Origin: a virus
Virus record (IMG/VR): IMGVR_UViG_3300025132_000067
Location: 1-46,886 of that record
Length of the DNA: 46,886 bases
Direction: 5' to 3' (one strand)
Both the position numbers and the translations under genes were made by a program. Positions 1,377-46,593 of this stretch are shown piece by piece. Every line of letters starts with the position of its first letter. Within the stretch, counting starts at the first letter, position 1. The notes beneath the pieces were generated by a model that worked only from the letters and a program-made list of their open reading frames with translations, did not search any database and was not told the origin of the DNA.

Positions 1377-1727
1377 TTAAATTAAGTAAGGTTTTAGGAC
1401 CGCTAATGTATCTTCTGGACCATCCATAGCTTGTCCTAGAGGTGCGTCGGTTTTGTCTTGGACTGTGGGAATGTAAGTGGTTTCCCCATTATCGTCTTCT
1501 ATAACTAGAACTGGGGTATACCAACCTAGGTGGTGTTCTCTTTCTGCGTCAATGTATTCCCATCTTGTATCACCATTTTCTTTTTTCTGTTCCTCTGTGA
1601 TTACAGATATAGACCTATTCACAAATGGTATGTTATTCTCTTTTAATATTTTTTTTGTTTCTTGGCAGTCATCACAAGAATCTTCTGTGAAAATAGATAA
1701 TTTGTATTTTTTAGTATTTAACTTCAT
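1377..1727 (-). CDS. Glutaredoxin-like thiol-disulfide oxidoreductase
   Basis: The 116-residue product has the thioredoxin-fold layout of glutaredoxins. A beta strand (KLSIFTED) leads into an active-site CxxC at C18 and C21 (SCDDC), and the cis-proline element is TP at 71-72 followed by VLVIED. Such proteins reduce disulfides in the cytoplasm and can supply electrons to ribonucleotide reductase. T4-type phages commonly carry one. An acidic insertion between residues 45 and 66 (many E, K and D) makes it longer than a minimal glutaredoxin. It ends just before the sigma factor promoter and lies 8 bases downstream of the 185-aa gene, so it probably shares that transcript. The substrate is not visible from sequence. 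Confidence 0.85.
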   Translation of the reverse strand: MKLNTKKYKLSIFTEDSCDDCQETKKILKENNIPFVNRSISVITEEQKKENGDTRWEYIDAEREHHLGWYTPVLVIEDDNGETTYIPTVQDKTDAPLGQAMDGPEDTLAVLKPYLI

Positions 1728-5690: not shown

Positions 5691-5703
5691 ATGTTAAATA
5701 TGT

Positions 5704-5714
5704 GATATTTATTA
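5704..5714 (+). promoter_or_regulatory. Recurrent GATATTTATTA motif in the divergent intergenic region
   Basis: The plus strand reads GATATTTATTA, starting 28 bases before the M23 peptidase ATG at 5732. It has the same TATTTAT core seen upstream of several minus-strand genes, and here it is oriented toward the only plus-strand gene. The 41-base divergent spacer must carry whatever signals drive both genes. Confidence 0.3.
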
Positions 5715-5731
5715 CTATAAATCAATTAGTA

Positions 5732-14759: not shown

Positions 14760-14810
14760 ATTAGTATTCTCTTATTATATAATTATCTAGTTATCCAATT
14801 TATTTTATTA

Positions 14811-28842: not shown

Positions 28843-29760
28843 TTATTGATTAACTATTATATTATTAAACGCTTGACTGAAATCTATATTGTTACCTCTA
28901 TTTTGTCTAACTTCATATAGTTGGTCGTTAAATGCATCTCTTACTTCGTATAAGTCATATTGTTGGTAGATGTTGTTTAGTCCACTTAGGTCATATAATG
29001 TGTATATACCATTATCTATAGACTTAGTTTGGTTACCGTACAGAGCGATAGCCAAGGTATCAAAGTCATGGTCTACCATTTCAATATCTAAAGCTAGTGG
29101 GTTAAAAAATGTATTAGTTATTATGACTGATTGTCCTGGTTGCCCAATAAACGGTATCGCGTTAGGATTGTTAGATGGGGCACTAGTAGGTGTTAAAGTA
29201 CAAAAAACTAAATTAGTTCTATTATTAGTATATACATACCTTGGTGATATCTGATTAGGGTTTGTTAGTTTTGCTGCTACTGGTTCACAATAAAAATTAG
29301 ATGTTACAATTCTGAAAAAATTACTTTTTTTAGAACCGTCTAACTCTAAATATTCTATCCTATAACCAACTAATTCAGATGGTCTAAATCTATCTCTAAA
29401 TTGTATAGGTATAGCATTTAAATCAAAAACTAAACCTTTTACGTTAGGTAATGATGATAATATACCACAATCTATTATAGTTGTTCTTATTTCTATTGGT
29501 CTTATATAAACAGTGTATATACCTTTTTGAGCAAACACTGAAGAAGGTAGTTTTAAATCATACAATCCACCTAATATTTCATTAGGGTTACCACCAGTAC
29601 TGGTATTGTGAGAGTGTGGTGCAAGTACTTGAGTCGCTGGTAATTGAGTTATTATAAAGTTGCTCGATGCACTTCTGTCTGGTTGAAAATGAACTAGGAC
29701 TTGTGCGTCCTCTGGTCGTACATCTGCTGGTCTTTTTATTCCGTATGCTCCTAATGCCAT
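28843..29760 (-). CDS. Probable baseplate/tail protein, unknown family
   Basis: I do not recognise this 305-residue protein. It has alternating beta-type segments (IYTVYIRPIEIRTTIIDC, then GYRIEYLELDGS and FFRIVTSNFYCEP), no membrane segment or signal, and a C terminus rich in Asn and Tyr. The gene sits between the 73-residue and 1105-residue genes with gaps of 3 and 5 bases, in the structural operon. A tail or baseplate connector role is the most likely. Confidence 0.68.
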   Translation of the reverse strand: MALGAYGIKRPADVRPEDAQVLVHFQPDRSASSNFIITQLPATQVLAPHSHNTSTGGNPNEILGGLYDLKLPSSVFAQKGIYTVYIRPIEIRTTIIDCGILSSLPNVKGLVFDLNAIPIQFRDRFRPSELVGYRIEYLELDGSKKSNFFRIVTSNFYCEPVAAKLTNPNQISPRYVYTNNRTNLVFCTLTPTSAPSNNPNAIPFIGQPGQSVIITNTFFNPLALDIEMVDHDFDTLAIALYGNQTKSIDNGIYTLYDLSGLNNIYQQYDLYEVRDAFNDQLYEVRQNRGNNIDFSQAFNNIIVNQ

Positions 29761-29763
29761 TTA

Positions 29764-29985
29764 TTACGCTTCTTTTTCTATTTTATAAAACCCATAACCA
29801 TGTAACGTCAATTCACCCATATTTGGGGTTAAATCTAGTCTTTGGGGTCTTTCAAAGACGGTTATTTTACCTCTTTCGATAAATATATTTGAACGTGTTT
29901 CAGGTCTCTCACAAACATTCATTAATACCTCTTCTTTTGTTAAAGGAGGAATACAACCACTATATTTTACAATACCTAAACCCAT
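29764..29985 (-). CDS. Small protein of the tail operon, unknown
   Basis: The 73-residue protein has no recognised domain. It contains CIPPLTKEEVLMNVCERP with two cysteines 13 residues apart and a beta-rich C-terminal half (NIFIERGKITVFERP, GELTLHGYGFYKIE). It is preceded by a 59-base spacer that carries GATATTTATAA on the minus strand, so it may head a transcript covering the following tail genes. The downstream gene starts 3 bases after its stop. Confidence 0.65.
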   Translation of the reverse strand: MGLGIVKYSGCIPPLTKEEVLMNVCERPETRSNIFIERGKITVFERPQRLDLTPNMGELTLHGYGFYKIEKEA

Positions 29986-30044: not shown

Positions 30045-33000
30045 TTACATATGTGTGTGGTGATGTATACCACAAATAGGGGGTACAGTAGACCATCCCT
30101 GAGGACATGGTAATGATGACACGGATGTTGTTTGAATAGCCCATCCATTTTGTGAATGTACACATTTATAACATGTAATATTAGATATTACTGGTGGACA
30201 CTTGTCACCATTTTCATCACACCCACAATTCATCCATGCTCCAGTTATATCTGTTAAAGTACCATTAATTATTTGACATGGTATGTTAGATACGTTAGAA
30301 TTTGATTTTTTTGCTACTATGGTATCACTATGGTCCGTAGAACTATCGGCATTATTTGGATTTACACAACAATAACAACACCCGTCTGTTGGGTTGGTTA
30401 CACAGTCATTATACGAGTAGTTCCAAAGCCCAGCATTACCTGGCCATAATGTCCAACTTATAGGCCAAATACCTAGATATGGTGCTAAGTGTAGTGAACA
30501 ACATTCACACTCTCCATCAGGAAAACAAGTATCACCATTAACATCAACACCACAAGTTTGCCAACCTGCCCAAGCTGATTGTGGAAGACCTACATTTTGA
30601 TTTGGTACTATACCACCATCACATCTTAAACTATTAGGGTTTCCACCTGCACTCAACCAACCTTGTTCATCTATCAATACACAACAATAACAACACTCAT
30701 CTTCTGGGTCTATAACACATTCATTAACTACAAAGCCCATAATACTAGAACTCCAATAACCAATGTGGGTTGGGGTGTATTGTGGTACTAAACTAAAATA
30801 ACTACTTAAACTATTTAAACATTCGTCACACCCATCCCAACAATTCGCTTGACAGTCTGCTAGTGATTGGTATTGTCCACCTAATTGGGTTACACAACTA
30901 CCGTTTATACATTCATACTCTTTTGGTGAACGTCCTCCACAAGTTTCATCACAAGGCCACCAAGGAGACATATCACCATAATTTACACTTTGAATTTGGG
31001 TTACTGGTGTTGGTGCTGACATGGTACTTCCATCACACGCTAATCCATTTATAAAGTTATTATAACATATAGAAGGGTCGTAGAAACTTGTAGCGTCGAC
31101 AACATCTCCAAACTTCTTTACAGAAATATAACAACAACCATCTAATGGACTTTCTGTAACTTCATTATACCCCCAAATTAATCCTGGTGCCCATGTGGTT
31201 ATACCACCCTGAGCGTTACTCGTAGTAGGGAGTGCCATAGAACCTGTCCAATAAGGAGCCCATATTCCTGTGAATTCATTTCGTATCAGTGCATGACCTA
31301 CTGTCCCCACACAAGGTTCACATTTAGATACAGTAGTGGCTGTATAACAACAATTATCAAGTGGGTCATTTAAACAATCAGCTAAACTTGCATATTGACC
31401 TAATGGTCCAGCTGGTATACATTCACAATCTACAGTTGACACTGTCTGTCCTGGAAGACCTAAAGTTGGTGAAATTGTTTTTTTACAATCGTATCTGGTT
31501 GTAGAAGTTATACCAGTATTACAACACGTGTGACTTTGTTGACATTCTGCTAAAGTAAGATAAGGACCATTTGGGGTTGGTATACACTTACATAAACCAT
31601 TAAGGTTGGAGACACAATCATACTTAGTCTCTCCGGTCATTCCAGTCCAACAACAATTTAATGGGTCATTTTGACAATCTATAAGACTCGTGTATGGACC
31701 CGTTGGGTCTGGTACACACTTACATAAACCATTATTACCTACTTTACATTGATACGTTTCAGGTGTTACACCGGTCCAACAACATTTTCCTGGGTCAGTC
31801 TCACAATCGTGTAGAGTATTGTATACACCAAAGACATCTGGTATACAGTTACAGTCAACTGGGTCACAAGTCCATCTAGTTTGTGTTTGTGCTGAACAAC
31901 AAGTAGTTGGGTCATTTTCACAATCAGTTTGATTATAATAATGAATTAGTGGGTTATAGGTTGTAATACTCGTATCAAAGATACAGTTACATTGGGACCC
32001 TGTTTGAGGTGCTAAAACATTTTCACAAACCCAAAATCCACAACATGGGTCACTTAATAATGATTGGTTACATTGTCCTTGTGTTGCATATTGTCCACCA
32101 ATACCAACTACCGGTACACAAGTACATGGTGTAGTAGGACAAAGACATTGGGTCGCTGAAGCGGTAGGATTTATTGGTCCACAAACATTATTAAGTAAAC
32201 TTCTTAGTTGGGTAAAATTCATTGCGTTTGTTGCCGCTAACCCAGCATTTACTAATTGATTGACCCAGTCTTGTTTACTCACGAAGGCCATTGGCATATA
32301 GTTGGCGTTAAAAGTTGCATCGTTACTACAAAAATTAAAGGACATCGTAGTTGGTATATTATATTTTTGATTGGAAACAGTCCCTAAACAACTATCACTA
32401 CTAATACTTTGTCCAGGGTTGGTATCTTGATAATAATACTCTGTAAATAAATCTGTTGGTGGCACATTATTTGCTGGGTCTAATATCCATATTATTGGTG
32501 CAAATCCAGTCATATTTCCTATAAAAGTTTTACTTTGACAATCACCAGGAGAAGGTGTGGTTGTTCCAGGTATACAATCATAACTAATTCTATTAACAGG
32601 GTTTCCACAACTTGAGTTACATGGTACCCACACTAATGTACCACTATTACTTGCGTTAGTTCCTGGTCCTGTTGGTCCTGGCCATACTGGGTTACTAGTC
32701 GCTAAATCATTAAGATAATATTGATAGTATGCTCCAGGATTAAAAGTCCAAATATTCGCGGGGTCATCATCAACAGCAACATAACAACACACGTCACCAT
32801 CCCAACTAGCTGTTACAACATCCCCTATAGAGTAGTTTGTTCCTGGAACCCATGCTGGTGCACTACCAGTAAATGGTGTTACAGTAACTGAACCTACCAT
32901 CCAACTATTCATCGGGTCATCAAAATAAGTATAACTGATGGAACCTATCACGGAACATTCATAACAATCACAACACCCACTATATGAAGCAAAAAATGCG

Positions 33001-36000
33001 GATGAAGTTACTGCAACAACACAATCTGTATAATTGTAATATACTGGGTTACATGTTCCTGGAGGTTGTGGTCCCGCACAAAAACAATCATTTATACAAT
33101 CACCACATCCCCAAGTACAAACTGCTTGACAATCTATTAGTGATGCATGTGGTCCTGAAACAAAACTACTAGGTGGACTTGTACTGGTAAAAGCAGAACA
33201 CCCTACTATATCTAAACAATAAAAATCAGTAGTGGCTAAAGTACAAGGATATCCTATTGCTGAACCAGCAGTTGCTTGTTCACACGCATATGGTGTTAAT
33301 TCACTAGGTATATTCGTACATGGACACATATTTATACCCCAATCTACATCATTACAATTAGATGTACCTGGAGGGGCACAATCACAACAATATCTACATT
33401 GTTGCTCACAATCTGCTTGTGTTGCAAATCCTACACCTGCAAAATTATTTGTTACTTGTGCATCAAAGTAAGTGTTTGTTGGGTCTGTAGGTCCTCCCGC
33501 TAATTGTCCTATAGCCCCTTGTTGATAAAGCGGTGTTTGTCCCGCGAAATAAGTACTATTTCTACAAGATGATATTGGTACTGCTGCACTGTAATCACCG
33601 TTTAATGCACCGTATGTATCACACCACCATTCTTCTGGAGGTGCACAACAATCACAACTACTAAATGCAGCCCAACAATCAAAAGCACTACTGTATGTGG
33701 TTGGTGCAACAGATAAAGCGTTAAATATACAATTACCTATTCCATTAGGTGGACAACCACATTCCCATGTACAATAGTCTTGACAATCTTGTAAACTAGT
33801 AAAAGGTCCAGGATAACCTGGAGTATTAGGTGGTACTATAACACAACCTAAACCAGCTACACCCGCTGTAGATTCACAATTAGATGTATAATCACAATAC
33901 CAAGTATCCGCTGATGTACTACCTGTACAACAATCTATTACTGATAATGAAGCAAGACATGCATCAAGAGATATAAAAGGATAAACAGGATGTGTAGCTC
34001 CTTGTGGTACCGGTGGGAACGTAGGGTACCCACCAAAAAATATACCCGTATTACTTTGATTAACCCAATCTTGTAGAACTACACAATTTGTAGTATCTGT
34101 AACTGGGTCTTCACAATAACAAGATGCTCTACAGTGTTCTTCACATGTATTGGCCGTATAACAATTTTGTGATGCTTGTGTAAACATTGGGTCGTAAACA
34201 CAAGAAGATGGTGTACAACCACTTGGTGTACATTCGTAAGTTTGACTAGGTCCTCCACCACAAGGTTGACATCCTGTTGGTGGTAGTCCCGGTGTTCCTC
34301 CACAAGTTTCCCAAGGGTTTGGTGTACCGTTAGTTGCTGGTCCATCATCTGGTATAAAACAACTACAGTCAAATGTTGTTATACAGTCTGGTCCAGTTCC
34401 TATTCCACCGAATCCCCATAGTGACGGCATCATACAAACATAACAACATAAAGGAGAATCTGCATCAGAATGCCAAACTACATCATGTAATTCGTAGACG
34501 ACACCTAACTGATATTGTCCTTGTGGTGATAAAACTGTTCCACCCATACCTATACTATTCATATAATCATCACATGGACAAATACAATCGTCCACCTGAG
34601 TTTCAGAACAAACATAATCCCCTACAGAATTTAAAACTAAATTAGTGGTACATTCTAACATTGTACAATAAGGTAAGAAAGGGTTGGTACCTGTTGGGTC
34701 ACAATTCGCAGCAGCAGTAGCAGTATAATATGGCACATAATAACAAGGCCAATTACCTGGTGGGAAAAGTTGTTGATTTCCAGGTTCTGAACCTAAAGCT
34801 AGGGTATCGTCACATTCTGCGTGACAACATTCGGTTGCTTCACAACACGCAGAGAAACTACTATAACCCGTAAAACCTGGAGCTGGATTAGAAAAACCTA
34901 AAAGATTTTGTGCCATATAATAGCCACTAACACCATCCTGACAATATGTAGGACCTTGATAATTAGGGCTCGTGGGGTCAATATCTATAAAACAGTCCCA
35001 TCCTGCATCACATACACAAAAATCATTACAATCGGTAACTGAGGAAAACCAAGTTACATTATCAATTACTCCAGCACATGGACTTTGTAATGTACATGGT
35101 GTCATTTGAGTACAGTCACAAACATAACATTGTTCAATTTGAGTACAGTCTGCAGTACAGGCAGAATAACCGTATCCTGGATAGGTTGGGTTAGTAGGTG
35201 AAACCCATGGTCCCCAACCACAATTACAATCATAACATTCAACACAAGGTTGATTTATTGTTTCACAAGACCAACCACAAGGTACTATACCACCACCCAG
35301 AGTCGCTGGGTCTTGTTGACACTCTTGTAAGTTTGCGTAGGTACCTCCGATAGTTACTTGGTAACACCCAGTACAACAATCCCACTCAAAACCCGAATAA
35401 TCACAACACGCGGAAGTACTATATTGGTATCCTAAACTAGTGGTAAAAGCTGTTCCAGCGTTACAAGCTGCTAGTCCAAAATCTGGCGTAAAATAAAATT
35501 GTGCATTAACGGCTAACCATTCATTTGGTGTTAAACCGTTAGGGAGGAAACCTGGTACCAAACCTAGTACACTATTTACGGTACTGGTGTACACTCCTGG
35601 GGTTGCATTTGCCGCGTCTTCAGCACAAGAGAATAATGTACAACATTCATTAGCATTTGATGCTGTAGGGGTTGTACAAGAATAAGCTGGTGGGTTACAC
35701 CAACCTTCACAATCCATTTGTGTATTAAATACTGGTCCAGCTAATGGATTAAGAGGGTCAAAACTTGTATAAGCAGAATGACTAGAATTAATTTCAATAC
35801 ATCCAGTACAATCATATTGATTTTCACACACCCATTTATCAGGGAAACACTCACCATCATCAAAATCATCTTTACAATCTTCATAGTACTGATAACCCTG
35901 AATAACATTAGTTGTGGTTGTTATTCCAGTACCTGGTACTAATTCACAACCATATAGGGGTATATTATTTAAGTCTTGAGGACAAATCCATGTTGAACAA

Positions 36001-37916
36001 CCTACATATTCCCAATAAGTGGTAGAAGTAAAAGCGGTTGGTGGGTAATTTGCACTACTCGCTGATAAAGCTTGGTAACAATTACCTTCTGGTCCTGTCA
36101 CAAAACATCCTGGTAATATCCAAGCCGCTCCATTAACGTACTGACCTGCTGGGTCTCCTGGATTCTGACCACAATGTTGTATAGTAACATCGTCACACGG
36201 TGTTGAGGTTCCTGGAGGACAGTTAACACAATCCGAAGAACATGCCTCCCAAATATGTTCCATTGGAATATTATTTTGGTACCATACACCTTGTAGTGTC
36301 ATAGAAGGTGGTACACCTGCCCAATCCGAAATTGTTGAGCCTGTTTGGAAAATATCTTTAACAGCCATAAAACAACAACAAGTATTGTATGTGGTATCAA
36401 ATACTATATCACCCACTTGATAGTCTGTGTATGGTGACCAAACACCTCTTTGTGAATTAAAACTAATAGAATTCCACACACCAGTTATCCTATCTATATA
36501 TTCATCTTTTGTTTCACAAAAATCACAATCTTCTACGGTACATTCAAAACAATCATATGCTCCAAAAGACAAAGCATTAAGACCACAACTGTCAGCGACA
36601 TATAAAGTAATTCCGTTATTGAAATCATAAAAATCTATTGGTGTTTGGTTATTTGCAGAAGATATCGTATAAGCGGTATATATGGCATTTGCTGTGTTGA
36701 TATACCCATACATACCTGTTTCTATATTATTTGTATTAGGATTAACTACGTCACCTCCAATAGGTACTATAGTGTTATAGGTATACCCGGGAGGTAAGTT
36801 TGGTGAATTAGCTGTGGTGTAGGTTTGGAACGCACCCAAAAGACTTTCTGTTACACCTGTAACTTCAAAACAATTTGGGAATTGTGTCATTCCTGTGTAC
36901 TCGTTGATATCTGTACCACTGTCCCACGGTATGTAATTACCTTGACCTAGAGTACCAGATGGAGCAGAGGTGTAACCAGTACCTATAGTTTGACCTGATG
37001 CGTTAATAGTTAAAGCACTATTAGGTGGAATACCACCTATTGAAGCTAGTTGGTTATAGGTATAGTTAGGTGCTGTGATAATTTGAGAAATAGAAGTGGG
37101 CCCCCATGGGGTGTCTTGTGTTATGGTAATCCTATATTGTACTGGTGGACCAGGAGGATACGGGTGTGTTGCAGAAACAACACCATTATTATAAACTAAA
37201 GTTGTTGGTGCTGTACCGTCACCCCAGTCAATAGTAAATGGTAGGTCTTGCAATTCTTTATAATAACTAAAATCTGTGGTATTAGTAATTTTTATAGTAT
37301 CACCAGGCATTACAGTAGTACTTGCTGTGAAAACAAAATTAGAAAAGGTATCTTTTTGACTTATATTACCATCCCATAAAGAGTAGTGCCCAATATCATT
37401 AAAATCTTGTGAAATAAATAATGTTAGATTATTCAGGTATGGGTCTAAATTATTATCACAATTACAAGGGCCTATATTATAATTAATATTATATTCTGAA
37501 GTTAGATTAATTGGTTGATTAAAGTTAACTCTTAAGGATTCAAAAAGTGTTATAACATTGTTATAACTTTCCCCGGTTACTACAGTATTTGCTAAACTAT
37601 CTACAACATTTATCCCATAAAATGCTTTATAAGCGTAATTCCCTATATTTCTACAATGACCACTATTAGCAGAAGTATACAAATCCCACAATATAATACA
37701 TGGGTTACTAAAAGAACACTCTCGTAATTCTAAAGGAAAAGTTCTTATATCACCACTTAACGCATTAAGAAGTTGTGACCCTGTAGAGTTATACATACTC
37801 ATACCAGAACAATCCATACTGTTATTAATTGGCCAGTAGTTAGTACCTCCACTACAAGGTAATGACGTATAAATGTCCGGGTTAGTTCTTTTTATTCTAA
37901 AATTTAATCTTTCCAT
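30045..37916 (-). CDS. Giant Cys-rich modular tail protein (2623 aa)
   Basis: This is the largest gene in the window. The N-terminal 190 residues are structural and unrecognised. A PKD-like domain follows (about 190-290; TIDWGDGTAPTTL, then VSATHPYPPGPP and YRITITQ). Two types of module then alternate. Type A, about 15 copies, is a Cys-rich repeat of pattern [WY]xC-x(n)-CxC-[IV]P-x(4)-GxYxSLxxC-x(5)-CC, clearest at residues 2006-2188. Type B, about six copies, resembles carbohydrate-binding module family 5/12, with W..G..Y..GDVV and a CCY motif, near 491-521, 1130-1165, 1684-1725, 2240-2270, 2385-2425 and 2490-2525. No membrane segment or signal peptide is seen. It lies 3 bases after the 300-residue gene. 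The function is probably host-surface binding, by inference; a capsid-decoration role cannot be excluded. Confidence 0.8.
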   Translation of the reverse strand: MERLNFRIKRTNPDIYTSLPCSGGTNYWPINNSMDCSGMSMYNSTGSQLLNALSGDIRTFPLELRECSFSNPCIILWDLYTSANSGHCRNIGNYAYKAFYGINVVDSLANTVVTGESYNNVITLFESLRVNFNQPINLTSEYNINYNIGPCNCDNNLDPYLNNLTLFISQDFNDIGHYSLWDGNISQKDTFSNFVFTASTTVMPGDTIKITNTTDFSYYKELQDLPFTIDWGDGTAPTTLVYNNGVVSATHPYPPGPPVQYRITITQDTPWGPTSISQIITAPNYTYNQLASIGGIPPNSALTINASGQTIGTGYTSAPSGTLGQGNYIPWDSGTDINEYTGMTQFPNCFEVTGVTESLLGAFQTYTTANSPNLPPGYTYNTIVPIGGDVVNPNTNNIETGMYGYINTANAIYTAYTISSANNQTPIDFYDFNNGITLYVADSCGLNALSFGAYDCFECTVEDCDFCETKDEYIDRITGVWNSISFNSQRGVWSPYTDYQVGDIVFDTTYNTCCCFMAVKDIFQTGSTISDWAGVPPSMTLQGVWYQNNIPMEHIWEACSSDCVNCPPGTSTPCDDVTIQHCGQNPGDPAGQYVNGAAWILPGCFVTGPEGNCYQALSASSANYPPTAFTSTTYWEYVGCSTWICPQDLNNIPLYGCELVPGTGITTTTNVIQGYQYYEDCKDDFDDGECFPDKWVCENQYDCTGCIEINSSHSAYTSFDPLNPLAGPVFNTQMDCEGWCNPPAYSCTTPTASNANECCTLFSCAEDAANATPGVYTSTVNSVLGLVPGFLPNGLTPNEWLAVNAQFYFTPDFGLAACNAGTAFTTSLGYQYSTSACCDYSGFEWDCCTGCYQVTIGGTYANLQECQQDPATLGGGIVPCGWSCETINQPCVECYDCNCGWGPWVSPTNPTYPGYGYSACTADCTQIEQCYVCDCTQMTPCTLQSPCAGVIDNVTWFSSVTDCNDFCVCDAGWDCFIDIDPTSPNYQGPTYCQDGVSGYYMAQNLLGFSNPAPGFTGYSSFSACCEATECCHAECDDTLALGSEPGNQQLFPPGNWPCYYVPYYTATAAANCDPTGTNPFLPYCTMLECTTNLVLNSVGDYVCSETQVDDCICPCDDYMNSIGMGGTVLSPQGQYQLGVVYELHDVVWHSDADSPLCCYVCMMPSLWGFGGIGTGPDCITTFDCSCFIPDDGPATNGTPNPWETCGGTPGLPPTGCQPCGGGPSQTYECTPSGCTPSSCVYDPMFTQASQNCYTANTCEEHCRASCYCEDPVTDTTNCVVLQDWVNQSNTGIFFGGYPTFPPVPQGATHPVYPFISLDACLASLSVIDCCTGSTSADTWYCDYTSNCESTAGVAGLGCVIVPPNTPGYPGPFTSLQDCQDYCTWECGCPPNGIGNCIFNALSVAPTTYSSAFDCWAAFSSCDCCAPPEEWWCDTYGALNGDYSAAVPISSCRNSTYFAGQTPLYQQGAIGQLAGGPTDPTNTYFDAQVTNNFAGVGFATQADCEQQCRYCCDCAPPGTSNCNDVDWGINMCPCTNIPSELTPYACEQATAGSAIGYPCTLATTDFYCLDIVGCSAFTSTSPPSSFVSGPHASLIDCQAVCTWGCGDCINDCFCAGPQPPGTCNPVYYNYTDCVVAVTSSAFFASYSGCCDCYECSVIGSISYTYFDDPMNSWMVGSVTVTPFTGSAPAWVPGTNYSIGDVVTASWDGDVCCYVAVDDDPANIWTFNPGAYYQYYLNDLATSNPVWPGPTGPGTNASNSGTLVWVPCNSSCGNPVNRISYDCIPGTTTPSPGDCQSKTFIGNMTGFAPIIWILDPANNVPPTDLFTEYYYQDTNPGQSISSDSCLGTVSNQKYNIPTTMSFNFCSNDATFNANYMPMAFVSKQDWVNQLVNAGLAATNAMNFTQLRSLLNNVCGPINPTASATQCLCPTTPCTCVPVVGIGGQYATQGQCNQSLLSDPCCGFWVCENVLAPQTGSQCNCIFDTSITTYNPLIHYYNQTDCENDPTTCCSAQTQTRWTCDPVDCNCIPDVFGVYNTLHDCETDPGKCCWTGVTPETYQCKVGNNGLCKCVPDPTGPYTSLIDCQNDPLNCCWTGMTGETKYDCVSNLNGLCKCIPTPNGPYLTLAECQQSHTCCNTGITSTTRYDCKKTISPTLGLPGQTVSTVDCECIPAGPLGQYASLADCLNDPLDNCCYTATTVSKCEPCVGTVGHALIRNEFTGIWAPYWTGSMALPTTSNAQGGITTWAPGLIWGYNEVTESPLDGCCYISVKKFGDVVDATSFYDPSICYNNFINGLACDGSTMSAPTPVTQIQSVNYGDMSPWWPCDETCGGRSPKEYECINGSCVTQLGGQYQSLADCQANCWDGCDECLNSLSSYFSLVPQYTPTHIGYWSSSIMGFVVNECVIDPEDECCYCCVLIDEQGWLSAGGNPNSLRCDGGIVPNQNVGLPQSAWAGWQTCGVDVNGDTCFPDGECECCSLHLAPYLGIWPISWTLWPGNAGLWNYSYNDCVTNPTDGCCYCCVNPNNADSSTDHSDTIVAKKSNSNVSNIPCQIINGTLTDITGAWMNCGCDENGDKCPPVISNITCYKCVHSQNGWAIQTTSVSSLPCPQGWSTVPPICGIHHHTHM
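31353..31901 (-). repeat. Tandem Cys-rich repeat units (117-174 bp) in the giant gene
   Basis: Four successive type A units begin at the CC of each copy, at 31901, 31784, 31655 and 31526, and the next CC is at 31352. Unit lengths are therefore 117, 129, 129 and 174 bases, all multiples of three. The two 129-base units are the most alike at both DNA and protein level, for example GLCKCVPDPTGPY and GLCKCIPTPNGPY. This indicates recent duplication or recombination between units without loss of frame. Confidence 0.8.
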
Positions 37917-37919
37917 AAA

Positions 37920-38822
37920 TTAAGGTGTTGGGTTAACGTATTCGTAAAATTTTATGGGTTGTTGTCCTGGTGGAAAACCTGTTCCTACTTCAGAACCCAT
38001 ACCTACTTGTCCTGCGTTATAATTATTTATATTATATTTTCTTACTTTATAACTAAATTTAGGGATAGCTGTTGGATTTGGGTTTATATTTAAAAGTACC
38101 TCGTAGTAAAAATAATCTGTAAAGTCATAGGTTACAGTACCAGATACAGTAGGTGAAGGTGGACTTTCATTTACCATTCTTGTGACTTTACCTGTTTTTG
38201 CGTTAAAAAATTGACAGGACATATAAAATACGTTCCCCTCAAATAAATCTCTTTTTTTATACCAGTGTATATAATAATTTTCATTTAATCCTGGCCTTGG
38301 TCTTAGTCTAACTTTTGGTTCGTAAAGTATCCAGGAAGGCATAGTGATTCCTTGGCTAATTTGTGTATAGTATTCCAAAGCATCTGTCATTGGATTGACG
38401 GGCACACTATCTCCTTTTAAACAATTATTTAAAGGCATAATATTAGAAAACATTATTTTTTGTTGTTTTCTGTCGGGTGAATCATAGAAATTAAACTTAA
38501 AAAAACTTCTAACAACAGAATTTGCGTCATTAGCTAATTCATTGTCCGTAAAACCTATAGTCTGAAATTTATCCTCGTATAATTGCGTTACTGGATTAAA
38601 AAACTCGAATTGGTAATAAACGTCATTACCACTTACTGAATTATTAAAGGAGTATCTAGTTGTTTCAAAATCTTGTATTATATTTATATTATCTTGAATT
38701 TCTACCTCTTCATAAGTGGTTATTAACTGTTCTCTACCCACCTCATCAAATGTATCTCCAATAGGTATAGTAATCTTTCTATCCTCACTTGAAACTTTTA
38801 GTTGTATTCTATTGGCACCCAT
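37920..38822 (-). CDS. Probable baseplate/tail protein, unknown family
   Basis: The 300-residue protein starts with an acidic, beta-type N terminus (LKVSSEDRKITIPIGDTFDE) and has a middle section of alternating strands and aromatic residues (FFKFNFYDSPDRKQQK, YYIHWYKKRDLF). The C terminus is Gly/Pro-rich. No family is recognised. Its start overlaps the end of the 601-residue gene by 14 bases, so the two are translationally coupled. The position two genes after the 1192-residue protein resembles where T4-type phages carry baseplate wedge genes 8-10, but I cannot confirm homology. Confidence 0.68.
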   Translation of the reverse strand: MGANRIQLKVSSEDRKITIPIGDTFDEVGREQLITTYEEVEIQDNINIIQDFETTRYSFNNSVSGNDVYYQFEFFNPVTQLYEDKFQTIGFTDNELANDANSVVRSFFKFNFYDSPDRKQQKIMFSNIMPLNNCLKGDSVPVNPMTDALEYYTQISQGITMPSWILYEPKVRLRPRPGLNENYYIHWYKKRDLFEGNVFYMSCQFFNAKTGKVTRMVNESPPSPTVSGTVTYDFTDYFYYEVLLNINPNPTAIPKFSYKVRKYNINNYNAGQVGMGSEVGTGFPPGQQPIKFYEYVNPTP

Positions 38823-40614
38823 CGGTATACATGTTTAAAATATTTATAGTACTAGCAGTGTACTCAGGTAATGTTAATATAGGTCCTATCGGTTCTATCG
38901 TGAATTCCAGTGTGTGACTTGGATAGTGTGCGTCATTAAGATAAGGGTATGTTACTCCATTTTTTTCTTCTTCAAAATAACCCACAGGTAATAAAGGACG
39001 CCATCTAAATGTACCTTCCACTAAAGAATAAGTAGAATACTGTGGGGATGTAAATAGTGCGTCGTTAAAATTAATACCATTCGATAATTTTCTAATAGGT
39101 ATACGATGATGTGGTTGGTACTTATATATGGATTCTACTTGTGGGTACATGTAATTTCCTGAGTCTAAAGCGTCTGTATTAAATTTAAGTGAATGACCTA
39201 ATTCTGATATTATTCTTTCTTTTATCTCATATGGGTTATATTCTACAAAAGCTCCTCTATATGTAGTACCACTAACTGGTAGTGGGTCCACACCATTCGT
39301 ATTAGTTTGAATGATATTAGTTGGGTTTGTTCCGTTATCTACAAATGGGTCCACAAAACCATTTTTCCTAAAATTCCAGCCCCAACCATAACCACAAGGA
39401 GAATTACCACTAGTATAATCCCAAATTAAATTTCTATTACTAGCAAAAATACTCAAATATAAATCAATCACAGGTCTATTAAGATTGTCATAATACATAC
39501 TCCTATCTATATCTTCAGTTATAGTCCATAAAAATGATTTAAATTCTTCTCTAATTACTGTTTTACCTGGATACCCGGGAGGTGTTTTACGTGATTTAAA
39601 TACCCTACCTTTCTTATTATATATCCCAAATTCAAAACCTGTTCTTCCCAAGGTATAATCTCGTGGGTTAGTTATTAATTTATGTTCATGTGTGTAGTAT
39701 TCACTTTTAGTTTCTGGGTTATCTGGGTTTACGAACCTTTTGAGTACACCGACACCTTTGGGTGGCATTGCGGTTCCACCACCCGCATTAATAGTTGTAT
39801 TAATTAATCCTCGTGTATTAATATTTATTATATATTTTTCTGAACCTGCGAATTCATTACCCAGTGAATCTACTTCAAATAAAGTTTGTACTCGAGTATT
39901 TAGTACACCTAAAACACTGACTTGTAACACAATACTTCCAATAAAATCTACCCCACCAAAAGCAAATGTTTGACCCCCCACTTCAGGTTGTAATTCAATG
40001 TACTCACCCGGTATTAAACCGTGAGGTACTGGTGTTGTTATCCTTAAAATTTCTTTTCCTTGGTCATTTGTAACTTCTAGTTCAAATGGTATACCATCAC
40101 TAGATATAAAATTTAAACCTTGATTTAGATTATAATCACTATAATAAGTCATGTGTTGACTTGTGTTAGCGGAGTGAACATATGATATATATAATAACCA
40201 ATTATCTTGGTAAGAAACTAAATCATTATAGTTAAATGTCTTAGTTGATGGTCCAAAAGGTCCTGGAGGCATAAAATCAAAAGTTCTTGCTGGTGGGAGA
40301 CCTAGACAAGGTGTGTTAGTACAACCTAGATAATCTGGTAAAAAATACATACTCTCTAAAAAATCTGGGTCAGAGGTGTTTCCTGTTATTATATTTTCAA
40401 ATAATACATCAATTTTACCATATAACCTATAAAATTGTGAGTAGTCTCTTTCAAAGTTAAATTGTTCAACAACATTTAATACTCTATTTCTATCCCCTTG
40501 AATTAGTGTTCTTTTTTCGGAGGTAAGAAGTGGTTGTAAAGAAACGTCAAAATCTTTAGCTCCTTTATATTTGGAACTACCTTTTACTATTCTTATGTTT
40601 TTTCTATTACTCAT
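38809..40614 (-). CDS. Probable baseplate wedge protein, gp8 position
   Basis: In this 601-residue protein the first 60 residues are charged (RIVKGSSKYKGAKDFDVSLQ). The body is beta-rich with frequent aromatic and Pro/Gly turns, including PVPHGLIPGEYIELQPEVGG, a pattern seen in phage structural proteins. No catalytic motif, signal or membrane segment is seen. It starts on the stop of the preceding gene (TAATG, one shared base). The order gp25, gp6, this block matches the order of baseplate wedge genes in T4-type phages, so it may replace gp8 (334 residues in T4). The placement is by synteny only. Confidence 0.68.
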   Translation of the reverse strand: MSNRKNIRIVKGSSKYKGAKDFDVSLQPLLTSEKRTLIQGDRNRVLNVVEQFNFERDYSQFYRLYGKIDVLFENIITGNTSDPDFLESMYFLPDYLGCTNTPCLGLPPARTFDFMPPGPFGPSTKTFNYNDLVSYQDNWLLYISYVHSANTSQHMTYYSDYNLNQGLNFISSDGIPFELEVTNDQGKEILRITTPVPHGLIPGEYIELQPEVGGQTFAFGGVDFIGSIVLQVSVLGVLNTRVQTLFEVDSLGNEFAGSEKYIININTRGLINTTINAGGGTAMPPKGVGVLKRFVNPDNPETKSEYYTHEHKLITNPRDYTLGRTGFEFGIYNKKGRVFKSRKTPPGYPGKTVIREEFKSFLWTITEDIDRSMYYDNLNRPVIDLYLSIFASNRNLIWDYTSGNSPCGYGWGWNFRKNGFVDPFVDNGTNPTNIIQTNTNGVDPLPVSGTTYRGAFVEYNPYEIKERIISELGHSLKFNTDALDSGNYMYPQVESIYKYQPHHRIPIRKLSNGINFNDALFTSPQYSTYSLVEGTFRWRPLLPVGYFEEEKNGVTYPYLNDAHYPSHTLEFTIEPIGPILTLPEYTASTINILNMYTDGCQ

Positions 40615-43600
40615 TATACTACGGTATCCGCTAATTCTTCATCCACATATAATCTAATAAAAGTGTTATATGAAGTTGCTCCTGGTCTCAAACCAAAATA
40701 ATAAAATAGTGGTTGTGAGAAATTTATTTGTCCCGCACTATCTGGTGTAAGTATTGGAAATTGTGTTGCTCCTGTAAATCCTATATCGAATCCCATGTTA
40801 TTCTGAAAAGAAGATGCTGGTGGTAAATTATTATAAGTAAAAGTTACTGGTGGTGTTAAAGATAATCCAGGTATTACTGTCATTCCTTGAGCCGGTGCTA
40901 CAGCAACTCTAACGGAGTAGTTTCCTCTTGTATACATCCAATCATTAAAAGTACTACCAAAACCAGAACCAGGGTTACGTATAATCCAAGGATAAAAAGG
41001 TACTGTTTGACTACTAGCGGATAAATCTAAAGTTGCACAATTAATTAAATCTTGACCACTCATTAATATTTGTGTTGATGATGTAAATAGTAGTGGTTCC
41101 CATTCTATATCTGAACCTCCTCCATTCATGGTACTCCAATCAACATTTACAGCATTAGGTACATAAGTATTTGGTACAATATTCATTGGTGGATACTCCA
41201 TACCAGGAACCGGTGGTGGAGTAGTTTCAGGGGATGAACAGTCACAAATGGTAGAACTCATATTAGTTTCATATCCAAACACACCTAACATACAATTTTG
41301 CATTAATGCCTGTGCAACATCACCACCAATCTCTTTTTCCGGTCTAGTAAACATAGTATCCTTCATGAAACTTGGGTTATATTGTTTCGCGTTATAGATA
41401 TCAGCTACCAAATCAGTTATATTTTGGAATGTTGTACTACCTATTTGGTCTGTTATCGAACATTCCTCAGCGTATGATGGGTCTAAACATACTTGTTGTA
41501 TGCATTGGTTTCTGGACCCCATATCTGTCATCGTAGTTGGAAATAGGATGTGTCTATCCATATCCCCTGTAGAGTGTAGGTCAGTACTTAGGTTACCGGG
41601 AGATAACCAAGCAGACCATACTCCATCCGTATCACCTATAAAGTTACCAGTACTTGCAGCGGTAACTCTAAATGGTGTTGACCTATAATAAAAAACGTTA
41701 TCTATTGGATGAAGGTAAACAACTTTTCTACAGAACATTGAGTCTTCGGCATAAGTGTCATATGTTTCTCCATTCCAAAACGCTGTATACCCATTTGTTG
41801 TTAATTCTAATTTTGCCTTAAATTGGAATTGGTATAAGAATCCACTTACCCAATTATTTTCCCAGAAATAATTCATTATTCCGTTACATAAAGCAGAGGT
41901 TAATTTTTCTCTTTTTATCCACTCATATAAAACTCTCATGTCTAGATTTTCACCCAAACATGCTGGATTAAAACATATTATTTTAACATAACAACCCCCC
42001 GCCGCATAACCATCAGTAATAGTGTTGGGGGAAAATTCTTCGGAATTAAAACCGTATGTATTTGAACAACAAATCACATCTTCTGATGTTTCGGTTGGTG
42101 GATTGGTTGCATAAGCTCCTTGTCCACAACAATCATGTTGCCATTTCATTTCAATGCCCATTCCACCTGCACCCGCCGCATTACCAACAGGACATGGTGC
42201 TATTTGTGTTGTTGCACCACTGCTAGGTATACCATCTGGACAAGGTGCATTAGTTGCTAATGTATCAAATTCACCACTCGCTGATGGTCTACATGAACAT
42301 TTTTCACACTCTGGGTATTTAGTTTGTCTTAAAGAAAATAAAACGAATCCAATCCTTAACCCAAAATACATGCAGTCAATACCACATCCAAAACCTGTTA
42401 AACTTATTTGGCCACAGAGCTGGGGTGGGGTAGGCATTAAATTGCCAAAATTGATTATGGTAAAGAAGGTATTGAATGGCCACCCTAGATAAAAACCCAG
42501 AACCAAACTATATAACCAACACCATAGTTCACAAAATGCATATATAATAAATAAAACTATACCTAATATCAAACCTAAAATTACAGCTAGTAAACTTACT
42601 ATCAAATTTACTAAGAGGTATATAAAACCTAGAAAAGTTATAAAGAAATCATTTAGATATAAGACAAATTTCATCCTTCTAACCGCACTATTAACTGGAA
42701 AGAACATTGCTGAAGTTGCACATTGTTGTTCCATTTCTGGTAAAATCTCTTTTATACCTATAAACTGTCTTCTACCATTATGTTTGACGTGGTCATGAAA
42801 TTGAGCACATGTATATACTCTATTAAACGTCATATCATAAAACACATCTTCTGCACCGGGCATTAGATGTCTTTGAGCGTAACCGTGATAATCACTATAA
42901 TTTATAGAAAAAGCATAACTTCTTGGGTCGATTCCAGGCCAATCACCATCATTATTAGATTGAGTATTAAATTCTCGGATGTTGGGAACTAGATGTGCTC
43001 CTGAACGTCTTTGTCTAGCACTACCTCTACTTTGTTCTGGTTTAATTCTAAATCTACACCTTGCTCGTGTTGGTACACCTTTACTAGGGTCTTTAGATAA
43101 CACTAAATCACCGAACTCGTTGGTTATTACATGGTCCAAATTCATGGGTACGTGTACTAAAAAAGCTCCGTCATTATCTATTACCCTACCACCATTTTCA
43201 AAATAAAATCTTTCTAGTACAGGGACTTTACCACCCAGAGGGGGTCCAGTATAAGTTTCCCCATCGTATGTTGGGAAAGCTGCTGGGTCATCTTTAAAAA
43301 ATGGTGTATACCTTATACAATCTATAATACCTGGTTGTGTTATTATACTACATAACTCACCCATGTGTCTTCTTGGTTTACATTGTCTATTAACTGAATC
43401 TTTATCAGTATCTTGTGCTGTACTTCCCATAAATACAGATGTCGGTTCTAACTTAAAACCAGAATTACCTAGGTCAAAATCTACTCTTGTAATTGCCGCC
43501 CTACATTGTTCTTCATCCCCCCAAAAAGGTTTAATATCTATTGTTTTAGTTTGGTTTATAATTTGTGGTAAAGAATCTATTTCCGCGTCTGTTCTAAATC

Positions 43601-44192
43601 TAGGCCCATCAAAATCTGATTCTGGGAACCCTTTAAGTTTAAAATCTTGTGGTAATAGGGAAAAACAACCTATATCACTTAAGTCCACATCCATCACTAT
43701 ATTTTGAGAACCTGTGGGAACCCCATATATCATAAAGTCACCTGACTCATTAGTTTTTACTGTAAACTTATAATATTTGTCATACACGTATTTTACTTCT
43801 TGTTGGGTGAGTACAGAGTTTAGTGTCGGGAAAGTTCCTACTGGTGTATGACAATTAAAATTTCTTTCTGAACTTAAAAGGTTGTATCTAACCCCGTCTT
43901 CATTTTTTTCATATGGCTCTTTATATGGATATAAGAATTTAACTACTTCATTATCTTCATCCTCAGCTTGTAGTGGGATAAATATAGAAACTTTAGCGTT
44001 AGGGATACCAAAACCATTATTTGCTGTAACTCTACCAACTACCACACCAAAATCAGCACACATTCTTGTATACACTTCTTGTTGTGTTAAAGAAAGACTA
44101 AGAATCTCTAACAAATCAAATTTTTGGTCTAATTCAAAAGTTACATTCTTATCTTTACCTACTTCTGTTCTTACTCTAAAAGATTTACCCAT
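40614..44192 (-). CDS. Large baseplate-region protein with a membrane-spanning core, gp7 position
   Basis: The 1192-residue protein has at residues 48-175 a CarboxypepD_reg-like beta domain (VVGRVTANNGFGIPNAKVSI, then SGDFMIYGVPTGSQNIVMDV). A structural section to about 500 follows, with FDLGNSGFKLEP and RCRFRIKP. Residues 507-575 are one long hydrophobic block (FFITFLGFIYLLVNLIVSLL, LILGIVLFIIYAF), and a weaker one (FGLRIGFVLFS) ends near 620. A Cys-rich segment follows (CEKCSC, CCGQ, CC), and then beta-type sequence. Its place immediately after gp6 corresponds to T4 gp7 (1032 residues), but T4 gp7 has no such hydrophobic core as far as I know. It may insert into a membrane during infection; this is inference. 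Confidence 0.78.
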   Translation of the reverse strand: MGKSFRVRTEVGKDKNVTFELDQKFDLLEILSLSLTQQEVYTRMCADFGVVVGRVTANNGFGIPNAKVSIFIPLQAEDEDNEVVKFLYPYKEPYEKNEDGVRYNLLSSERNFNCHTPVGTFPTLNSVLTQQEVKYVYDKYYKFTVKTNESGDFMIYGVPTGSQNIVMDVDLSDIGCFSLLPQDFKLKGFPESDFDGPRFRTDAEIDSLPQIINQTKTIDIKPFWGDEEQCRAAITRVDFDLGNSGFKLEPTSVFMGSTAQDTDKDSVNRQCKPRRHMGELCSIITQPGIIDCIRYTPFFKDDPAAFPTYDGETYTGPPLGGKVPVLERFYFENGGRVIDNDGAFLVHVPMNLDHVITNEFGDLVLSKDPSKGVPTRARCRFRIKPEQSRGSARQRRSGAHLVPNIREFNTQSNNDGDWPGIDPRSYAFSINYSDYHGYAQRHLMPGAEDVFYDMTFNRVYTCAQFHDHVKHNGRRQFIGIKEILPEMEQQCATSAMFFPVNSAVRRMKFVLYLNDFFITFLGFIYLLVNLIVSLLAVILGLILGIVLFIIYAFCELWCWLYSLVLGFYLGWPFNTFFTIINFGNLMPTPPQLCGQISLTGFGCGIDCMYFGLRIGFVLFSLRQTKYPECEKCSCRPSASGEFDTLATNAPCPDGIPSSGATTQIAPCPVGNAAGAGGMGIEMKWQHDCCGQGAYATNPPTETSEDVICCSNTYGFNSEEFSPNTITDGYAAGGCYVKIICFNPACLGENLDMRVLYEWIKREKLTSALCNGIMNYFWENNWVSGFLYQFQFKAKLELTTNGYTAFWNGETYDTYAEDSMFCRKVVYLHPIDNVFYYRSTPFRVTAASTGNFIGDTDGVWSAWLSPGNLSTDLHSTGDMDRHILFPTTMTDMGSRNQCIQQVCLDPSYAEECSITDQIGSTTFQNITDLVADIYNAKQYNPSFMKDTMFTRPEKEIGGDVAQALMQNCMLGVFGYETNMSSTICDCSSPETTPPPVPGMEYPPMNIVPNTYVPNAVNVDWSTMNGGGSDIEWEPLLFTSSTQILMSGQDLINCATLDLSASSQTVPFYPWIIRNPGSGFGSTFNDWMYTRGNYSVRVAVAPAQGMTVIPGLSLTPPVTFTYNNLPPASSFQNNMGFDIGFTGATQFPILTPDSAGQINFSQPLFYYFGLRPGATSYNTFIRLYVDEELADTVV

Positions 44193-44291: not shown

Positions 44292-46133
44292 TTAGGTGAA
44301 GGTAGGTTTGTTTGGTTTTCTTACCCTTATAGCTATATCTTTCTCTGGAAATCTTACTTGTAATATCTCATCTGGTTGAGCATATATAGTATCATCAAGT
44401 AAAGCTATTTCTCTAGTACTATCATCCCCATAAGGTTGTGAGGTGATTGATTGTGAGTATTGTCCACCCACTTTATTGTAAATTCTTAAATTTACTATGT
44501 TCAAAACTCCTGGTTGGTTCATTATTTGACTTCTTAGTTCACCCATTGATAAGTCTTGTCCCATTTCTATTTTATTAATATTAAAATAGTTAGTTACCTG
44601 TTCTACAACATTACCCACTATTGCTCCAGAATTAAAAGAGTCTTCTATTATTAAGTCTATTAAAAAAGATATGTCGATTACTTTTGCTGGTCCAACCACT
44701 ATATAATCATTCATCATCCTATAGTTTGATAGGTAGGTTGCGATATTACTCTTTAAAGTACTAGTAACTTCTGAGGTTAGTTTTCCGTCAGGTGTATACG
44801 AAAGTATGTTTAACATAACCTTATTTTCAATCTCTGTAACACCTACCTTTGCGGGTGCTCCAAAAGTACTAGGCATCATACGTAATTTAGAAACATAATC
44901 ATTTATAGTTACAGCTCGGTTTTGTGCGGCAAAATTATAAGATATGTAATTTCTTATTTCTTCAACAGACATAGGGTCCGCACCTCCTATTGCTGAAGTT
45001 ACGTTAGTAACAGCTAAACTATCAACTACCGATTGATTTATTTGTCCGTTAGGTCCCGCAACCACAAAGTTTACTTTACCAACATTAGTTATAGCACCTG
45101 CCCCTAGATTTGATACTTTTCCACCACCAATTCTATATTGTATAAATAAAGTACTATTTCCTTGTACCATATTACCTAAAGCGATATTATTCATGTACTG
45201 TGACATATTTAATTTTACACCTTTTTTTGCAAAATCATCTAAAAGGTCTTGTGATGTTTGGTTTCCACCCCCAAAAGTTAAAAAGAAATAACCTTCTGGT
45301 GTATATTGTGTTGTAAATCTTTGATTGACTTCTAAATATTTACCTACTTTGGTACCTACTTCGTCTGATGGCATAGATGGGTCCTCCACAAATACTTCAT
45401 CTTGAGCTAATGCTTCTACCTCATACCATTTATTGGTGTTTACAGCTAAAAACTCGGCATTAGTAGGTAGTGTTTGGTATCCTAGTCCCGATTTTTGCAT
45501 GACGGAGGTTACACCCACAACATTTCTTTCGGGCAAAAATAACTCGTAAAATGGAGTAGCTAAAGAATCAGTTATTTCTTTTTTAAAGACTTTGGTTACA
45601 CCATTAACAATAACCTCTCTTTTAACTATAGTATAATTTTGTATAATACCATTAACATCCCTATTAGGTATTTTAGTTCTATTAACTATACCTTCTACAT
45701 TATATTGTGTAGAAAAATCACAGTCGTTTACTAGTTCAAATATTTGACCAGCTCCTCTAAATTGAGCTCCTCTACTTAATTTTCCTAGGTATCTAAAATC
45801 TTCTTTATCGCCTAAAGCTGGTACAATTATAGATATGTCAGCTACTGTTATTGATGGTCTATTTCCAGGTATTTTTAATCCATAAGTTTTTGCTAAATTA
45901 TATAAAGAACTGCGTTCTTGTGCAAATTGTAGTGTTGTTTCTTGGAATGTTCTATCTATTTGGAAATTAAGATTGTCTGCGACTGCAGCATTTAAATCTA
46001 AAAATAAAGAATAAATAGATGCGTCATTGGCGTTTTTAATTAAGTCTGGATAATAGGTATTGGTAAGTCTTAGTAATTCATTTCTTACACCTAGAAAATC
46101 TCTTTCAGTATATGCTATTTTTTTCTCTGCCAT
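44292..46133 (-). CDS. 6: Baseplate wedge protein gp6-like (baseplate J family)
   Basis: The 613-residue protein is similar in layout and length to T4 gp6 (660 residues). It has an N-terminal region with TERDFLGVRNELLRLTNTYY and NDASIYSLFLDLNAAVADNL, followed by RSSLYNLAKTYGLKIPGNRP. Baseplate J-type proteins have this pattern of helices with a GxxxPGxRPS turn. The C-terminal half contains GADPMSVEEIRNYISYNFAA and a beta-rich end (REIALLDDTIYAQPDEILQV). Gp6-family proteins form the inner ring of the baseplate and join the wedges. It starts one base after the gp25 stop, and a shared transcript is likely. Confidence 0.9.
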   Translation of the reverse strand: MAEKKIAYTERDFLGVRNELLRLTNTYYPDLIKNANDASIYSLFLDLNAAVADNLNFQIDRTFQETTLQFAQERSSLYNLAKTYGLKIPGNRPSITVADISIIVPALGDKEDFRYLGKLSRGAQFRGAGQIFELVNDCDFSTQYNVEGIVNRTKIPNRDVNGIIQNYTIVKREVIVNGVTKVFKKEITDSLATPFYELFLPERNVVGVTSVMQKSGLGYQTLPTNAEFLAVNTNKWYEVEALAQDEVFVEDPSMPSDEVGTKVGKYLEVNQRFTTQYTPEGYFFLTFGGGNQTSQDLLDDFAKKGVKLNMSQYMNNIALGNMVQGNSTLFIQYRIGGGKVSNLGAGAITNVGKVNFVVAGPNGQINQSVVDSLAVTNVTSAIGGADPMSVEEIRNYISYNFAAQNRAVTINDYVSKLRMMPSTFGAPAKVGVTEIENKVMLNILSYTPDGKLTSEVTSTLKSNIATYLSNYRMMNDYIVVGPAKVIDISFLIDLIIEDSFNSGAIVGNVVEQVTNYFNINKIEMGQDLSMGELRSQIMNQPGVLNIVNLRIYNKVGGQYSQSITSQPYGDDSTREIALLDDTIYAQPDEILQVRFPEKDIAIRVRKPNKPTFT

Positions 46134-46134
46134 A

Positions 46135-46593
46135 TTATAAATTTATTATAACAAAATCTTTAGTTTCAAAAAATCCGTCACCCGCACTATAGTCAATCCT
46201 TACCCTCATAGTATATTCTCTCTCATCTTCACCGATGAAACCAAAACTATTATCATTTATGTTTTCAGAAGTATCATTTTTTTCTTCTAACCTTATATCT
46301 TCCGCTGTTTTAATATCAATGTCATTAATAACCAAATTAGGCATAAATTTTTCTACAGCATCCTTAATTTCATTATTAATACCTACTCTGGTTGTTGTAT
46401 CCATTGGTTCATAAATATACTTCATAAGATTTGTACCAAAATCAGGTAAAAAATACCTGGTACCCTTTAAAGTTAATATTAAATGAACTAAACTAGATTT
46501 TACTTCCGCGTCCGTTGTGCTATTTAACCCCAGGAAAAATCCTTCATTACTATCCGTAAATGGAAATGTTATACCGTACTTTTGATTAGGCAT
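46135..46593 (-). CDS. 25: Baseplate wedge protein gp25-like (GPW/gp25 family)
   Basis: The 152-residue protein has the typical GPW/gp25 layout, a lysozyme-like fold without activity that initiates sheath polymerisation. LTLKGTRYFLPDFGTNLMKY at 40-59 is the family signature region, followed by IYEPMD, a helix (INNEIKDAVEKFM) and a beta-rich C terminus. An acidic insertion (EDIRLEEKNDTSENINDN) lengthens the part before the final strands. It begins 52 bases after the stop of the DUF5522-like gene and directly precedes gp6, as in T4-type tail modules. Confidence 0.92.
   Translation of the reverse strand: MPNQKYGITFPFTDSNEGFFLGLNSTTDAEVKSSLVHLILTLKGTRYFLPDFGTNLMKYIYEPMDTTTRVGINNEIKDAVEKFMPNLVINDIDIKTAEDIRLEEKNDTSENINDNSFGFIGEDEREYTMRVRIDYSAGDGFFETKDFVIINL

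Follow-up and report, generated by a model that had tools for sequence, protein, structure and literature searches.

Cysteine is scarce in most phage structural proteins, as would be expected of particles assembled in the reducing environment of the cytoplasm. The closest described systems of the cysteine-using kind are two Agrobacterium phages. In phage Milano, the tail, baseplate and receptor-binding proteins are disulfide-linked, the receptor-binding proteins being joined to the baseplate by disulfides, and these disulfides must be broken for contraction (PMC10811340), while in phage 7-7-1 disulfides are found in the capsid (PMC12796354). The structural proteins of the two phages contain about 2.1-2.6% Cys (PMC10811340, PMC12796354).

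The window analysed here, by which we mean the whole stretch of DNA, is a virus record of 46,886 bases and encodes a protein far richer in Cys than these. Its reading frame is uninterrupted, with one terminal stop, and 218 of the 2,623 encoded residues (8.3%) are Cys, which agrees with the initial annotation of a 2623-residue Cys-rich protein at 30045-37916, where the strand was unstated. The Cys residues are split unevenly, with 9 in the head (aa 1-452) as against 209 in aa 453-2623 (9.6%), and the chain is strongly acidic, with 241 D+E as against 47 K+R and only 24 His. The gene, which we refer to as the giant gene, and its two main parts are, in positions of the window:

30045..37916, minus strand: giant Cys-rich gene, 2,623 aa, 218 Cys; syntenic homologs in L002-L004 and L009/L017, 61-97% identical
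36561..37916, minus strand: N-terminal head, aa 1-452, conserved (dN/dS 0.06-0.13), with aa ~151-437 as the core common to the compact ~360-aa homologs
30048..36560, minus strand: Cys-rich extension, aa 453-2623, 209 Cys, missing from the compact homologs

Since about 20 relatives carry a syntenic giant version (2,440-2,991 aa, 7.4-8.6% Cys), the ORF is not an oddity of one contig. It lies in a cluster with the gene order gp25, gp6/J, 1192, 601, 300, giant, 73 aa, 305 aa, which is kept in the relatives examined wherever the contig covers it:

46135..46593, minus strand: baseplate wedge gp25, same cluster, upstream of the giant gene
44292..46133, minus strand: baseplate wedge gp6/Baseplate_J-like, same cluster, upstream of the giant gene
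40614..44192, minus strand: 1,192-aa protein with 3% Cys, same cluster
38809..40614, minus strand: 601-aa protein, same cluster, order conserved
37920..38822, minus strand: 300-aa protein directly upstream of the giant gene, order conserved
28843..29760, minus strand: conserved 305-aa protein X305, a clade marker that is always downstream (order in relatives)

The shared gene order with gp25 and gp6 argues for the giant being a baseplate-region protein by context. The initial annotation had called it a phage structural protein, and the gene order and the compact homolog together argue for a place in the baseplate or tail.

By scanning viral contigs with the head, the 305-aa neighbour and the compact homolog as queries, we recovered compact, intermediate and giant forms of the locus. 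The compact form is a single ORF of 357-376 aa with 0-2 Cys, in which the head core is joined directly to a 70-aa domain (80 of 80 sampled). The intermediate form is split into two ORFs, most of them with 3-7% Cys; one encodes the head and in most cases one or two CBM-like modules, and the one after it often carries GCTDP-type repeats and has the 70-aa domain at its end. In the giant form the giant gene is then followed by a bare downstream gene of 73-77 aa, which in the window is:

29764..29985, minus strand: 73-aa gene, corresponding to the second half of the compact homolog but separate here, and strongly conserved (alignment over the junction, compact loci)

In the junction alignment the two halves of the compact protein are separated, in the window protein, by about 2,170 residues rich in Cys. 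That the Cys-rich part lies inside what is elsewhere one smaller protein tells us more than any other point of the analysis. Across the relatives the locus grades from a compact, near-Cys-free protein into the giant, and a tree built from the 305-aa neighbour groups the giants in one clade (100/100) and the compact loci in another (97/93), with the split intermediates between them. This tree is unrooted, and insertion, rather than loss in the compact phages, is therefore what we infer and not what we observe; growth of the extension would be a simpler reading than loss, offered as such and not as a demonstrated one. Because the 70-aa half became a separate gene, the giant chain has lost its covalent link to that half, which would suit an extension that works off the particle, after cleavage or release, as a secreted lectin-like or matrix-binding protein. 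We nevertheless regard this as very improbable, given that the head core shared with the compact form stays at the N-terminus of the giant and is its most conserved part. In some giants a further gene, of about 210 aa, separates the giant gene from the 73-aa gene (L020 18985-19626, L041 17327-17962), and in L049 and L051-L057 the first and second genes of the split form contain GC[TMV]DPxAxNYNPxAxxDDGSC-type repeats instead of the window's modules, repeats that resemble sequences associated with marine Bacteroidota.

The protein had initially been described as about 15 copies of a repeat of the form [WY]xC..CxC[IV]P..GxY.SL..C..CC that could not be named with confidence as a domain. To avoid circularity, we trained a repeat HMM only on relatives outside the window's clade (here called the cross-trained profile) and scored it on the window protein and on 400 shuffles. 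At >=20 bits it recovers 7 copies, and at >=5 bits 9; the corresponding averages in shuffles with all Cys positions fixed are 0.00 and 0.04, which puts the repeat far above chance. The repeat is thus real, but the strict form of the motif fits only 4 tandem copies in full (aa 2015-2190). Degenerate units picked out by eye, e.g. aa 694-748, 849-870, 1542-1605, 1924-1959 and 2333-2364, bring the total to roughly 12-14, so that 15 is best read as an upper bound:

33924..34118, minus strand: weak Cys repeat, aa 1267-1331, cross-trained profile 5.2 bits
33756..33905, minus strand: Cys repeat, aa 1338-1387, cross-trained profile 25.4 bits
33639..33755, minus strand: weak Cys repeat, aa 1388-1426, cross-trained profile 8.8 bits
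33381..33632, minus strand: Cys repeat with a long loop, aa 1429-1512, cross-trained profile 20.3 bits
31887..32036, minus strand: Cys repeat in the tandem block, aa 1961-2010, cross-trained profile 23.9 bits
31764..31880, minus strand: Cys repeat in the tandem block, aa 2013-2051, motif and cross-trained profile, 28.8 bits
31635..31757, minus strand: Cys repeat in the tandem block, aa 2054-2094, motif and cross-trained profile, 40.1 bits
31509..31628, minus strand: Cys repeat in the tandem block, aa 2097-2136, motif and cross-trained profile, 31.5 bits
31332..31499, minus strand: Cys repeat in the tandem block, aa 2140-2195, motif and cross-trained profile, 30.5 bits
30825..30920, minus strand: degenerate Cys repeat, aa 2333-2364, 8.3 bits (cross-trained profile 4.8 bits over aa 2320-2364)

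Nor can the protein be said to be made of this one repeat, as first proposed: the repeats are a minority of a chain that also contains the head of about 450 aa, 6-7 CBM5/12-like modules, and long Cys-rich stretches that belong to neither of the two module types. A self-BLAST of the giant protein showed no repeats, because the units are too short and divergent, and profile HMMs are needed to see them. Repeats at the DNA level are weak, the best tandem pairs reaching 73-75%, and there is therefore no sign of recent duplication. An enrichment of CC and CxC was considered as a sign of a motif and rejected, the doublets being no commoner than the Cys density predicts. Single units and the profile found no match in the PDB up to E 10, and the repeat found none in PHROGs; against Pfam, one of 25 units weakly matches DUF5637, a family of unknown function (E 0.0013), all other matches lying above 0.1. 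The end of the repeat, a small residue and an aromatic followed by C..C, resembles the end of a Kunitz domain; membership is not supported, neither units nor profile giving a Kunitz match in Pfam or the PDB and the Cys framework being different. The view that the repeat is not a nameable domain thus holds apart from the one stray DUF5637 match, and the repeat is undescribed in the libraries searched (Pfam, PHROGs, PDB). The profile search suggested with that view, carried out as a contig scan, found the repeat in viral contigs only inside this virus clade, where copy numbers vary among relatives from 4 to 11 Cys repeats and from 4 to 6 CBM-like modules (>=8 bits).

Iterative profiles uncovered a second module in the giant, present in 7 copies and with the layout G-x-W-x(5)-Y-x-x-G-D-x-V-x(n)-CCY-x(n)-P-x(n)-W-x-x-C. 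The initial annotation had overlooked this module, as well as the head and the location of the Cys-rich part within a smaller protein. Of the 7 copies, 6 were recovered at >=15 bits by a profile built on relatives outside the window's clade, which found 0 in shuffles:

36240..36449, minus strand: CBM5/12-like module 1, aa 490-559, 51.6 bits (cross-trained 64.7 bits)
35985..36149, minus strand: CBM5/12-like module 2, aa 590-644, 21.2 bits, degenerate in the window and clear in L017, missed by the cross-trained profile
34302..34523, minus strand: CBM5/12-like module 3, aa 1132-1205, iterative and cross-trained profiles
32619..32861, minus strand: CBM5/12-like module 4, aa 1686-1766, both profiles, with Pfam CBM_5_12 sub-threshold at aa 1688-1702
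30951..31196, minus strand: CBM5/12-like module 5, aa 2241-2322, iterative and cross-trained profiles
30552..30761, minus strand: CBM5/12-like module 6, aa 2386-2455, iterative and cross-trained profiles
30225..30422, minus strand: CBM5/12-like module 7, aa 2499-2564, iterative and cross-trained profiles

Compared with the PDB, a profile of 22 modules matched chitin oligosaccharide deacetylases (E 5.8e-5 to 2e-3), ChiA1 (E 0.024), a chitinase domain (2rts, E 0.099) and, weakly, a putative tail fiber of phage 7-7-1 (9rkv_M, E 0.058). Pfam CBM_5_12 was matched by 7 of the 22 single modules (best E 3e-5) and weakly by 6 of 27 whole proteins, with bit scores of 12.8 for the window protein and 21.1 for a module of L048, every listed score lying below the Pfam gathering cut-off for CBM5/12 (PF02839) of 26.2 bits. 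With the CBM5/12 domains of ChiA1 and the chitin oligosaccharide deacetylases the second module shares the layout W-x(5)-Y-x-x-G-D-x-V-x(n)-Y-x(n)-P-x(n)-W, but it has extra Cys (CCY, CCCF and the final W..C) and longer inserts, occurs in 6-7 copies within one phage protein, and does not obviously keep the exposed aromatics that stack on chitin in chitinases. We thus regard it as a Cys-reinforced relative of CBM5/12, and not as a certified member of that family.

In a set of 16 giants that are 34-61% identical to the window protein, 61% of its Cys are kept in at least 15, with Trp the next best at 17%. Other residues are conserved at about 50% in the head but at only about 20% in the last third, while Cys conservation mostly stays above 50%. 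Along the chain dN/dS rises, with values of 0.06-0.13 for the head, 0.05-0.22 for the middle part and 0.27-0.42 for the C-terminal third, and nowhere exceeds 0.42. Such a gradient, together with the variable repeat counts, is what one would expect of a protein that is anchored at one end and variable at the other. For a metagenomic contig with no solved relative one might suspect an assembly artefact or a functionless neutral expansion; we assign this a negligible probability and reject it, as it is contradicted by full-length versions in the same place on independent contigs, by a dN/dS of at most 0.42 throughout, and by the selective conservation of Cys.

The preferential conservation of Cys supports the proposal, made at the outset, of disulfide or metal stabilisation, and the conserved Cys could bind metal. 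Taken further, the chain would be a modular rod in which Cys and acidic residues coordinate zinc or calcium and form no disulfides, for which one could cite its strongly acidic character, DxNGD stretches that contain Cys and lie close to the C-terminal modules (aa ~2458-2466 and 2567-2574), and dockerin/EF-hand-like sequences elsewhere in the cluster and in L053. We consider this improbable, since the protein has no more than 24 His, the second module has its relatives among extracellular chitin-binding domains, and the composition (few basic residues and much Thr, Gly, Pro, Ser, Asn, Trp and Tyr) is of the type of extracellular disulfide proteins.

The head contains a putative domain:

37062..37304, minus strand: PKD/Ig-like domain in the head, aa ~205-285, with 'TIDWGDG' (Pfam, Foldseek, BFVD)

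The DWGDG motif is present. In relatives, Pfam PKD_4 and PKD are sub-threshold (PKD_4 18.8 bits in L049 against a cut-off of 27), and Foldseek of the head model gave weak matches to PKD and FnIII folds (E about 0.03). The top BFVD match of the head is A0A6J5L9U6, a 364-aa phage PKD protein (E 1e-14, 27% identity), which resembles the giant's head in size and fold only; the next is a phage protein annotated as ChiA1-BD-binding (E 2.8e-4, at a low probability of 0.18). The AlphaFold models have a mean pLDDT of 60 (aa 1-760) and 63 (aa 1660-2366), with the better head parts at 70-87, and at this confidence no shape, the initially suggested rigid rod included, and no disulfide pairing can therefore be claimed. 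Foldseek of the repeat-region model, which says little at its low confidence, gave no meaningful match (lowest E 1.6).

Our main reading, to which we give a probability of roughly 0.58, is that the giant serves an uncultured contractile-tailed phage as a host adhesin, mounted on the baseplate, stabilised by disulfides and binding carbohydrate; its location in the virion, the disulfides and the ligand are what we infer. The CBM5/12-like modules and the faster evolution of the distal end make adhesion, also suggested initially, plausible. Both the head and the 70-aa protein would sit on the baseplate and hold the giant there; the chain would be made reduced in the cytoplasm, with disulfides forming on release; the Cys framework may then keep a long extended arm stable while its surface diversifies; and the CBM-like modules and variable distal repeats could bind host polysaccharide, giving a receptor-binding or attachment arm. 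One could also speculate that the protein decorates the baseplate in a structural or protective role, as a cage or lock of disulfides that would hold the tail tip until contraction is triggered and would not bind a receptor. The very high Cys content and its selective conservation, the position of the gene within the baseplate cluster, and the precedent of Milano, where disulfides must be broken for contraction, would all fit such a device. It would not, however, need 2,000 variable residues and 6-7 carbohydrate-binding-like modules, and the C-terminal third evolves quickly while the repeat number differs among relatives, so that we judge a cage or lock unlikely. Building on the adhesin reading, we put forward, only tentatively and as a possibility we doubt, that the locus represents a new class of phage attachment organ, in which a disulfide scaffold, with a constant Cys skeleton and surfaces that can vary, grew inside a compact baseplate protein and split it, with the undescribed Cys repeat and the Cys-reinforced carbohydrate-binding modules as building blocks, host range set by repeat number and distal sequence, and oxidation only after release.

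The host is likely a member of Bacteroidota, because Shine-Dalgarno-like sites are few (1 of 29 window genes, a weak argument at 33% G+C) and the cultured relatives of gp6/J include Flavobacterium phages (~27% identity); one cultured relative infects a cyanobacterium. Scans of bacterial genomes found no relative, and hence no prophage or host copy. None of 50,697 phage records was matched by tblastn when the queries were the giant, the compact form, two short relatives and the neighbours of 1,192 and 305 aa, and PHROGs contained no profile matching the giant, the short relatives or the compact form. A literature search on Cys-rich phage tail proteins, CBMs in tail fibres and the GCTDP repeat found nothing directly relevant.

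Several other genes of the window were recorded in passing. Three adjoining fibre-like proteins of 628, 259 and 808 aa (12873-18016, minus strand) have similar N-terminal sequences, with '..FGxSDxDIDYR..' in the first two, and different C-terminal parts; they are probably paralogous, with no significant BLAST match among them. The tail-region gene at 14811-15590 (minus strand) matches Pfam Dockerin_1 at 24.4 bits, above the cut-off, and is calcium-binding-like (dockerin/EF-hand), and a tail-region gene of L053 (9455-12412) also holds dockerin/EF-hand-like calcium-binding sequences. The window further encodes a sigma-70-type factor with regions 1.2, 2 and 4 (451-1248, minus strand), a glutaredoxin-like protein (1377-1727, minus strand; Pfam 23.2 bits, just above the cut-off) that could serve ribonucleotide reduction or influence the thiol state, and, on the plus strand against the window's trend, an M23 peptidase (5672-6499) that is possibly a lysis or cell-wall enzyme.

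What this uncultured, widespread phage clade offers is a series at one locus, running from a compact, near-Cys-free tail protein of ~360 aa to a Cys-rich giant of 2,400-3,000 aa, and with it a tangible example of how phage adhesins may enlarge by adding modules. It also adds a Cys repeat absent from Pfam, PHROGs and the PDB, and suggests that contractile-tailed phages adopted disulfide chemistry more than once. Its nearest counterpart is the compact PKD-domain protein (80 loci), which has the same locus, head core, 70-aa second half and neighbours as the giant, but carries head and 70-aa domain in one ORF and is without the whole Cys-rich extension. Beyond the weak CBM-profile match to 9rkv_M (E 0.058), we found no sequence relation between the giant and Milano or 7-7-1. 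All are contractile-tailed phages with an unusual Cys content in structural proteins, the giant being a putative one. In Milano and 7-7-1, however, the Cys are spread over many subunits, whereas here they reach 8.3% in one giant modular protein, about four times the density.
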